Assembly (NCBI RefSeq): GCF_963675165.1
Contig: NC_087380.1
Span: forward strand, 2,037,803 to 2,101,802
Source of the DNA: Halichondria panicea
Lineage: Eukaryota > Porifera > Demospongiae > Suberitida > Halichondriidae
DNA: 64,000 bases
Direction of reading: 5' to 3'
The notes below the pieces were generated by a model, which ran no database searches, was not told the DNA's origin, and saw only the letters and a list, made by a program, of their open reading frames with translations. Each line of letters begins with the position of its first letter. Within the stretch, counting starts at the first letter, position 1. Shown one piece after another: positions 35,968-61,915 of this stretch. The position numbers and the translations under genes are program-made.

Positions 35968-36533
35968 ATGAAGAAGAAGTTACAAGGTGACTGTGTCTCT
36001 TGGCTGGTCCTTTTGACTGGAGCTGCTCAGCTCCTACTAGTGTGTGGAGAGGGTATGTTTAACCATGGTCATATACTAGTCTAGTAGTATTATGGTTTAA
36101 CCTGGTTAAACTAATATAATTTTATAGTCTATACTAACAGAGTGTGCTTATAGCCAGTGCATGCATGCAGGAGTGTACCTGTCCTCGGGATCGACCAAAA
36201 TTAACAACAAGACTGAGATCATCATCACTGACATCGGAGAGGATGGTGGTCTCCCTTCTCTCACCTGTCACACTGACCTCACTACCTGCTGTAGAAGTAT
36301 GACTGACAACAATGGTAATGGATCACTAGGACAGTGGATGTATCCTACTGGGAGTGTGATACTGGGCAATGGTGCCTCACTGGCTGCTGGACAGAAGTTT
36401 TACGTGAAAAGGAATGCTCCCCAACTCATCAAGCTAAACCGTAGAGAGATTAACAACCCCCTCACTCCAACCGGGTCCTATTGTTGCACTGTACCAACTA
36501 CTGGAGGAGAAATGACCCTCTGTGCTAACCTGG
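35968..36533 (+). CDS. Gene E exons: signal peptide and N-terminal V-type Ig-like module
   Basis: Exon 35968-36052 codes for MKKKLQGDC plus a hydrophobic core. Exon 36171-36533 codes for the Ig-like module with LTCHTDLTTCC, GQWMYPTG, TGSYCC and LCANLG. The F module differs by one residue (M to I near its end), and the intron between the two exons looks identical in both genes. Confidence 0.85.
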
Positions 36534-59800: not shown

Positions 59801-61915
59801 CACTTATTTTCTTTCTTCTTCAACAGAAGGTGTGCCATCGCTACTGGCCCAAGTTCCAAGGAGAGGCAGGAACTTATGGTGACTTCACTGTCACTCAGCA
59901 GACATTCGACGCTTACGGTGACTACGTTGTCAGGAAGCTATCTGTTGCCATGGCAGCTTCCGATGAGATCCCTTCCAAAGTGACACAGTTTCACTTCACC
60001 CACTGGACCGAGAAGGACCCCCCACAGAGCCCTGCCGCTATATTGGACGTTGTGCAGGAAGTGAATGCTGTTCAGATGGCCTCAGGCAATAAACCCATTG
60101 TCGTCATGTGCAAGTAAGTGTGTGTATGTGTATGCATGCTTTGATGGTACAGCTATACTTATGCTAAACAAGTATCTCAATGTCTCACTACCCCCCCCCC
60201 CACATACACACACACACACACACACACACAGCATTAAAGTAAACAATGTCTCACTACCCCCCCCTCACATACACACACACACACGCACACACACACACAG
60301 CAACTTATGTAATTAAACAATGTCTCACTACCCCCCCCCCACACATACACACACGCACACACACACACAGCAACTTATGCATTAAAGTAAACAATGTCTC
60401 ACTACCCCTCCCCCCACATACACACACGCACACACACACACAGCAACTTATGCATTAAAGTAAACAATGTCTCACTACCCCCCCACATACACACACGCAC
60501 ACACACACACACACAGAGCAACTTATGCATTAAAGTAAACAATGTCTCACCCCCCCCCCCCACATACACACACACACACGCGCACACACACACACACACA
60601 GCAACTTATGTATTAAATTAAACAATATCTCACTACCCCCCCCCACATACACACACGCACACACACACACACACACAGCAACTTATGCATTAAAGTAAAC
60701 AATGTCTCACTACCCCCCCCCCACATACACACACGCACACACACACACACACACAGCAACTTATGCATTAAAGTAAACAATGTCTCACCCCCCCCAAATA
60801 CACACACACACACGCACACACACACACACAGCAACTTATGTATTAAATTAAACAATGTCTCACTACCCCCCCACATACACACACACACGCACACACACAC
60901 ACACACAGCAACTTATGCATTAAAGTAAACAATATCTCACTACCCCCCCACATACACACACGCACACGCACACACACACACACACAGCAACTTATGCATT
61001 AAAGTAAACAATGTCTCACTACCCCCCCCCCCCCACATACACACACGCACACACACACACACACACACAGCAACTTATGCATTAAAGTAAACAATGTCTC
61101 ACTACCCCCCCCCCACATACACACATGCACACACACACACACACAGCAACTTATGCATAAAGTAAACAATGTCTCACTACCCCCCCCCACATACACACAC
61201 GCACACACACACACACACACACAGCAACTTATGCATTAAAGTAAACAATGTCTCACTACCCCCCCCCCCCACATACACACGCACACACACACACACACAC
61301 AGCAACTTATGCATTAAAGTAAACAATGTCTCACTACCCCCCCCCAATCACACACGCACACGCAGCAACTTATGTATTAAAGTAAACAATGTCTCACTAC
61401 CCCCCCCCCCACACACACATACACACACGCACACGCAGCAACTTATGCATTAAAGTAACTCACTACCCACACTTAATACCTTACTACCTCCCCCTCACAC
61501 ACATGCAGCAATGGGATTGGTCGCACTGGAGTGTTCATCACCCTGCATGCTCAACTGGAGCGACTCAAGATTGAGGGCGTGGTCGATGTGTTCCAGTTCA
61601 TCAAGTTTGCTCGCAAACAGAGGGAGGGACTTGTTAGCAGTCCTGTAAGTCATTAACAATACAAGTCTATTGGTCTACAGTATTCTACTACATTCTATTA
61701 TCCATTCTATGCTGTATAGATCCAATGTTTAACTACTCCGTTTATTTTAAAAGTACCTGTGTGCTTTGTACATTCATTTAGATATTATCTTTCCATATGA
61801 AGTAATCACCGTGCATCCCCCCACTGTGCAGGAGATGTATGCTTTCTGTCACGAGGCACTGGCTGACTATGTGGACAGTTTTGAAACTTATGCCAACTTC
61901 AAAGAACTGGTTTAA
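50264..61915 (+). CDS. Gene F: receptor-type tyrosine phosphatase with Ig/CCP ectodomain
   Basis: Thirty-seven exons, one frame of about 2223 residues. Ectodomain: 50264-50345, 50464-50826, 50884-51063, eleven array exons 51116-53732, 53793-53999, 54197-54403, 54452-54625, 54687-54962, 55017-55325, 55378-55719, 55770-56072. Helix: 56252-56351. Cytoplasm: 56455-56672, 56732-56835, 56919-57006, 57052-57128, 57434-57470, 57522-57616, 57765-57893, 58149-58448, 58630-58818, 59031-59130, 59241-59311, 59484-59618, 59827-60113, 61509-61644, 61832-61915. Order: signal peptide, V-type Ig-like, 15 CCP, 4 Ig, helix, D1, D2. All junction phases agree. It dephosphorylates phosphotyrosine at the membrane (family knowledge); substrates may include the tyrosine tails of the neighbouring receptors (inference). 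Confidence 0.88.
51116..53732 (+). CDS. Gene F CCP array: 11 tandem exon-intron units
   Basis: Exons start at 51116, 51359, 51602, 51845, 52088, 52330, 52573, 52816, 53058, 53301 and 53544, each 189 bases. Unit order after four leading units: D A B C A B terminal, in the nomenclature of gene E. The net difference from E is five units (1214 bases). Individual oddities: KICESD in unit 3 and ESDRMWSG in unit 8. The preceding CCP (50884-51063) is outside the array. Confidence 0.88.
53793..54625 (+). CDS. Gene F exons: three CCP modules after the array
   Basis: Exons 53793-53999, 54197-54403 and 54452-54625. The first two are nearly identical to E; the third differs (DCNTPRPITN, SSCSDGYALFGNAT). 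Then the Ig block follows, as in gene B. Confidence 0.83.
54687..56072 (+). CDS. Gene F exons: four Ig-like modules
   Basis: Exons 54687-54962, 55017-55325, 55378-55719 and 55770-56072, collinear with the B and C blocks. The last (IQCHSD, WTFPNG, GEYCC) ends at HVEPG in phase 1 and does not run on into a membrane-proximal domain. Confidence 0.83.
56252..56672 (+). CDS. Gene F membrane helix and juxtamembrane exons
   Basis: Exon 56252-56351 encodes EPSASG and a hydrophobic stretch of about 27 residues (MVGGIAAAIVILVIALLIIG...). It is unrelated to the VGGVVGG helices of A, B, C and E. Exon 56455-56672 begins RARRSRKHTF, a strong basic stop-transfer, and continues with an acidic/Pro segment before the phosphatase region. 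Confidence 0.8.
56919..58818 (+). CDS. Gene F phosphatase domain D1 (active-looking)
   Basis: Exons 56919 to 58818. Motifs in order: KNRFGNVFPYD (KNRY loop), DYINASYVNG, YIAAQGP, a TSWPDHGVP WPD loop (WPD codons 58203-58211), HCSAGVGRTG (catalytic Cys codon 58308-58310) and the Q-loop QTLSQYIF. All residues needed for phosphotyrosine hydrolysis are present. Exon 58630-58818 also encodes the D1-D2 linker. Confidence 0.88.
59031..61915 (+). CDS. Gene F phosphatase domain D2 (inactive-looking)
   Basis: Exons 59031-59130, 59241-59311, 59484-59618, 59827-60113, 61509-61644 and 61832-61915. KNRYSQILPN and YINASYIH are kept. The WPD loop is HWTEKDPP, the P-loop is MCNNGIGRTG (consensus HCSAGxGRTG; Cys codon 60109-60111), and the Q-loop is VSSPEMY. 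Loss of the WPD Asp and the Q-loop Gln with an altered P-loop fits the regulatory pseudophosphatase D2 of known receptor phosphatases. It ends ETYANFKELV at TAA, close to the usual end of a D2. Confidence 0.83.
59379..59400 (+). repeat. Duplicated acceptor and exon start in a D2 intron
   Basis: CTTGTCCAGGGCTACCAATG resembles the true acceptor region CTTGTCAAGGGCTACCAACA at 59475-59494, about 105 bases downstream. The copy leads into a stop and is probably a cryptic site. Confidence 0.4.
60177..61450. repeat. Minisatellite in the intron before the D2 P-loop exon
   Basis: About 16-17 units of 60-85 bases, each with CAGCAACTTATGCATTAAAG, TAAACAATGTCTCACTAC, a C-run and (CA)n. Each unit contains a pyrimidine/CA tract ending in CAG-CAA, like the real acceptor at 61508 (CAG-CAATGGG), so the intron carries a series of decoy 3' splice sites. 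The His/Thr/Pro frames in this stretch are not genes. Confidence 0.85.

Follow-up and report, generated by a model that had tools for sequence, protein, structure and literature searches.

The window analysed here is a 64,000-nucleotide stretch of the Halichondria panicea genome (C4:2037803-2101802, in a genome of 131.5 Mb and 39 contigs), and two receptor-like genes on its forward strand, E and F, are the subject of this report. Their models were assembled by hand, exon by exon, at GT-AG sites, and the features to which we refer are as follows (coordinates within the window).

35968..44621, + strand: gene E, 29 exons joined at GT-AG sites, a single open frame from start to stop, 1978 aa
35968..41372, + strand: tract of E shared with F, 13 of 2732 aligned bases differing from F
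36171..36533, + strand: N-terminal module exon of E (50464-50826 in F), 2 of 363 nt differing, 99.2% aa identity
43765..44216, + strand: membrane-proximal module and TM exon of E, from translation
44294..44621, + strand: tail exon of E, 108 residues with YEMM, YEEV, YEII and VAYS, compared among 31 tail exons
46240..46392, + strand: broken D2 exon between E and F, with one stop, 92-93% to the D2 exons of P1, P4 and P5
47542..50099, + strand: PTP-type intergenic sequence 5' of F (blocks 47542-48164 and 48590-50099), 81% and 83% to the P5 upstream sequence
50264..61915, + strand: gene F, 37 exons joined at GT-AG sites, a single open frame from start to stop, 2223 aa
50264..54451, + strand: tract of F shared with E, with 11 repeats versus 16 in E
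54687..56072, + strand: Ig-like stalk of F, four exons, Pfam Ig_3 at E 8.9e-6, under the Pfam cut-off
56252..56351, + strand: TM exon of F, from translation
57052..58818, + strand: phosphatase D1 of F, with WPD (WPDHGVP) and VHCSAGVGRTG intact, from translation and motif comparison
59241..61915, + strand: phosphatase D2 of F, with WTE replacing WPD, and CNNGIGRTG, from translation and motif comparison

In gene E, the signal peptide and N-terminal Ig-like module are followed by 24 CCP exons, a membrane-proximal module, a TM helix and a tyrosine tail; in gene F, they are followed by 15 CCP exons, four Ig-like stalk domains, a TM helix and a tandem tyrosine phosphatase (PTP). Both ends described in the earlier note were recovered in the translated models, that is, the E tail with its YEMM, YEEV and YEII motifs and the F end with an intact D1 and a helix unlike that of E. 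The helix is not a distinguishing mark of F, however, as the same TM type is also joined to an E-type tail in the neighbouring gene J. The by-eye label 'SEA' for the membrane-proximal module of E was dropped, since its predicted structure was too poor (pLDDT 40). In an exon search of 264 kb, which recovered 11 tail exons and seven main D1 exons, F proved to contain none of the tail exons and E none of the D1 exons; a single gene producing both outputs by alternative splicing was therefore rejected, and read-through splicing from E into F may still occur. A C- and CA-rich tandem repeat of about 75 bases, with a GC skew of about -0.5, occupies 60178-61468 in the penultimate intron of F.

E and F are nearly identical over a tract that opens with the signal-peptide exon and closes with the intron preceding the exon designated CCPd. 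Over the bases compared in register the difference amounts to 0.48%, only 2 of 748 intronic bases differ (0.27%), and the coding part (1902 nt) yields a dN of 0.0041 and a dS of 0.0067. These values, from the comparison of 35968-41372 with 50264-54451, bear out the near-identity, introns included, that the earlier note had described, and its single-residue difference in the N-terminal module was confirmed as M>I. Because E carries 16 near-identical repeats and F 11, the in-register comparison of the array took in the first two and the last three repeats, and the middle of the arrays was left out of the sums. All 16 E repeats have a counterpart in F that differs at no more than 5 of 189 positions, and a block of repeats is found again within the E array.

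The likeness of the two ectodomains is limited to this N-terminal half, the membrane-proximal parts being unlike. At the right border, the CCPd exon differs at 20 of 174 positions (11.5%; Fisher p 3e-17 versus the tract), and at the left border, within the 117 bases before the ATG, 23 of 101 aligned bases differ (23%; Fisher p 6e-26 versus the tract). Further out beyond both borders, E and F have no comparable match. As judged from the sequence, the tract is a sharply bounded, recent, conversion-like exchange.

Several elements were observed around the borders. Runs of (GT)n lie at 41598-41665, some 50 bases beyond the right border of the tract in E, and at 49657-49713, upstream of F. A foldback element at 34590-35840, with arms of about 490-527 nt that are 92% alike, ends 128 bases before the E ATG; of its 348 candidate genomic copies, the 40 that were scored all came out at 98-100%. 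It is a young and dispersed element that may conceivably affect the E promoter. As the sole cause of the left border it was excluded, because the border sits downstream of it, the 117 bases 3' of the element being already diverged. A segment of about 115 bases located 5' of both genes (34343-34457 and 49985-50099; about 88% alike) is also present upstream of many paralogs and may represent a promoter element or a 5' exon that they have in common.

With regard to the direction of the exchange, relatives were ranked segment by segment within the 264 kb. The upstream flank of F, its signal-peptide exon with intron 1 and its N-terminal exon are closest to the PTP gene P5 (84-88%), and the CCP repeats of the tract with the two following CCP exons are closest to gene M (about 87-92%). 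In E, CCPd is closest to B, P3 and P6 (95-96%) rather than to F, and the membrane-proximal module, tail and 3' flank are closest to the tail genes A and I; in F, the stalk, TM and juxtamembrane part are closest to P3 (93-94%), and D1 to P5, P4 and P1. The nearest paralog switches at each tract border. The P5-like flank of F continues into the tract, which makes F the likelier donor and E the probable recipient. Gene M itself (C4:2173588-2180500) has a signal peptide, an N-terminal module and CCP exons with no recognised tail or PTP end, and its product is possibly secreted or cut short. The broken D2 exon between the two genes is, by its similarity to the D2 exons of other PTP genes, a relic of an earlier PTP gene; together with the P5-like blocks between E and F, it suggests that the slot before F was probably once occupied by a PTP gene.

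The E tail was compared within a set of 31 tail exons, 20 of them fetched and 11 lying in the 264 kb, after six short or split matches out of 37 had been left out. YEEV is present in all 31, the first motif in 28 and the third in 27, and YxxM in just 14, so that the emphasis placed earlier on YEMM finds no support in the family. The strict ITAM pattern Yxx[LI]x6-12Yxx[LI] was found in one tail of the 31, which is not that of E, and a relaxed pattern allowing V in 28, including E. The ITIM pattern [SIVLT]xYxx[ILV] is absent from E and matched in 1 of the 31 tails, and the ITSM pattern TxYxx[VI] in none of them. For the tail stretch [10 protein letters not shown], dN is 0.004 and dS 0.452 (401 usable pairs); the dN/dS of the flanking codons was left unused as unreliable, because an indel breaks the ungapped comparison. 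By these motifs, the E tail is a member of a conserved ITAM-like family. Variant tails were also observed (C4:164290, C4:193620, C4:1882820 and C4:2162468), some with DPLYAN or NPLYATV, which we take to be NPxY-like, and four main-cluster tails are without the third tyrosine motif. Readers of a phosphorylated tail exist in the genome, namely one gene with the layout SH2-SH2-PTP and another with the layout SH2-ankyrin-SH2-kinase; by their domain order, these are presumably SHP-like and Shark-like, respectively.

At the other output, Pfam Y_phosphatase matches F in two stretches (E 6.7e-153), and F carries a TM helix and a PTP domain with the WPD and HCX5R motifs of a receptor PTP. All seven PTP genes have an intact main D1 exon, with a mean dN of 0.0046, a dS of 0.1275 and a dN/dS of 0.036 over the 21 pairs, and D2 has WTE instead of WPD in all seven. 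PTPRS and LAR are the closest matches of the phosphatase part of F, with CD45 and PTP-alpha further among the matches. F is thus a LAR-like tandem receptor phosphatase, whose D1 is intact and strongly constrained.

The N-terminal module is more difficult to classify. No Pfam Ig family matches it, either in the E/F piece or in the six paralogs searched, and among the weak PDB profile matches the best has E 0.0094 across 20 positions. Its predicted structure is all-beta at low confidence (pLDDT 44); most of the 50 fold matches listed for this low-confidence model are Ig-superfamily chains, and none of 591 reaches E 0.001. 'Ig-like' is a fair working name, and the more specific assignment to the V type made in the earlier note is not established by the Pfam or fold matches. 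The module appears only modestly constrained at the codon level, with a median dN/dS of 0.58 in 1501 sampled pairs and 0.76 in the 812 pairs with dS under 0.35.

This module has at least 150 matches in the genome, the majority on C4. Ninety copies were compared, 30 of them lying in the 264 kb and 60 fetched. Each was labelled according to the closest end found downstream within 25 kb, which gave 35 tail, 21 PTP and 34 neither; some labels assigned by this rule are possibly wrong. E and F, at 99.2%, are the sole tail-PTP pair above 88%; two further pairs at 99-100% are without an output label. On the tree of the modules, which is a quick one with few columns and many unresolved forks, the tail/PTP label requires at least 11 changes, and at least five per label are forced by the well-supported branches alone. 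Even so, the labels cluster beyond chance for tail, no shuffle of 500 being as low, and somewhat for PTP, where 18 of the 500 were. A similar mixture is found at the last stalk exon (Ig4 stalk), which has 15 close copies, eight preceding PTP and seven preceding tail ends by coordinates, and in gene J, where the F stalk and TM type are coupled to an E-type tail. With thresholds of 94% identity and 400 bases, just one tract in the 264 kb crosses outputs, that of E/F; the others link PTP genes, among them P4 and P5 (8.5 kb at 95.8%). Taken together, these comparisons indicate that E and F are one case of a large tandem Ig-like/sushi receptor family that joins common ectodomain modules to either output.

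Two other regions of C4 were noted. By coordinates, a second cluster lies at C4:0.10-0.48 Mb, with N-terminal modules leading to tails (0.12-0.23 Mb) and to PTP genes (0.33-0.48 Mb). The region C4:2.52-2.76 Mb contains many tyrosine-kinase matches, some with stops, which were considered as a possible third output, and no match to the Ig4 stalk was found within it. None of eight cysteine-protease loci retrieved from the genome showed a clear silicatein.

The reading that we favour, to which we give slightly less than an even chance, is that E and F are intact members of this tandem family, that E received the N-terminal half of F in a recent non-allelic exchange, and that the two proteins see the same ligand with opposed outputs. 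The exchange would have been a gene conversion, or an unequal event with the same effect, with F as the probable donor, and through the shared half E and F would recognise a common ligand or one another. Kinases would then phosphorylate the YEEV/YEII pair on E, and the phosphorylated tail would recruit SH2 proteins; the same ectodomain would bring F to the same contact, where D1 would strip phosphate off E or off the partners of E, and the response would be set by the E-to-F ratio. The receptor phosphatase F is accordingly presumed to be the inhibitory arm of a paired receptor. The comparison with paired receptors made in the earlier note stands in so far as there are two intact genes with distinct conserved outputs and a conversion-like tract, but 'kept alike' says more than a single recent exchange in one genome can support.

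Other explanations deserve consideration. E and F are the sole near-identical tail-PTP pair among the 90 modules, and their likeness may therefore be a passing by-product of frequent recombination: an array that recombines often would be homogenised at random, with E/F as the latest event, unrelated roles or expression for the two genes, and no selection on the pairing. We regard this as a serious, though less likely, rival. The low dS of the tract makes it young, P4 and P5 share their long tract with the same type of output, two more near-identical N-terminal-module pairs have no output assigned, and the median dN/dS of 0.76 implies only modest constraint on the module. Against this, both outputs are strongly conserved and the modules recur with both, a pattern that fits either tolerated or selected exchange and does not prove selection for pairing. 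A quite different relationship, which we consider unlikely, is that F aids E by taking an inhibitory phosphate off Src-family kinases, so that the shared ectodomain would boost E signalling. CD45 and PTP-alpha are receptor phosphatases able to promote Src-family signalling in this manner, and both have two PTP domains, as F does, and are found among its matches; the best matches of F are nevertheless of the LAR type, and the sequence does not decide.

It is more improbable still that the tract is an assembly or haplotype artefact, in which an allele was joined into one contig in place of a second locus. The identity between E and F is within the range possible for alleles, but their 5' flanks, their 3' halves and their repeat numbers are all unlike, both copies are located within one contig of 7.8 Mb, and the nearest paralog changes at each border.

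Paired receptors are known as ITIM/ITAM systems. Inhibition in SIGLEC11/SIGLEC16 is through an ITIM receptor without a phosphatase of its own, whereas here the inhibitory arm would be the receptor phosphatase F. The LAR-type receptor phosphatases (PTPRF and PTPRS) are the nearest solved relatives of the tandem phosphatase part of F; LAR ectodomains consist of Ig and FN3 domains, in contrast to the Ig-like module, CCP array and Ig-like stalk of F, shared with tail genes. Among invertebrates, the Alr proteins of Hydractinia are clustered IgSF receptors with ITAM or ITIM motifs, and we know of no CCP arrays or phosphatase ends in them. A receptor phosphatase as a member of a receptor pair was not found among the open-licence papers listed by literature searches, which is weak evidence of absence.

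The closest parallel is provided by SIGLEC11 and SIGLEC16 of primates, neighbouring genes described in the sections of PMC5701461 used here, whose extracellular N-terminal exons are near-identical through gene conversion and under relaxed constraint, and whose signalling ends differ. E and F are likewise neighbouring genes with a near-identical, apparently converted N-terminal half and unlike outputs; for the primate genes, those sections report repeated conversions across species and measured ligand binding, whereas E and F come from a single genome sequence (PMC5701461). The conversion there keeps binding alike, and the same logic would apply to E and F, with the phosphatase built into the receptor (PMC5701461). 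A second parallel is the fester family of Botryllus with the fester co-receptors (FF/FcoR), presented in excerpts of a report that also mentions the Hydractinia Alr proteins (PMC12065747). These form a large family of Ig/sushi/TM receptors encoded in pairs, with a layout of V-type Ig, one sushi, two C2 Ig, TM and tail, and with ITIM, hemITAM or core motifs in tails that switch between putatively activating and inhibitory motifs, at some loci by splicing (PMC12065747). Compared by layout alone, E and F also belong to a large invertebrate Ig/sushi/TM family with tyrosine-motif tails, but they differ in their long CCP arrays and in the phosphatase end, the FF/FcoR tails being without a phosphatase as far as those excerpts describe them (PMC12065747).

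If F restrains E via the same ectodomain, balanced recognition could be built without ITIMs, by a receptor with a phosphatase fused onto it, and this perhaps in an early animal, where self/non-self receptors are still under debate. The family also records, along a single chromosome, how outputs have been swapped, with 31 tail exons compared, seven D1-bearing phosphatase genes in 264 kb, and shared stalks and N-terminal modules. Tentatively, and with more doubt than confidence, we suggest a receptor family in an early-branching animal in which recombination may attach the same recognition modules to one of two outputs, an ITAM-like tail or a tandem receptor phosphatase, and that E and F may be a freshly matched pair whose inhibitory partner would itself remove phosphate rather than call on SHP via ITIMs.
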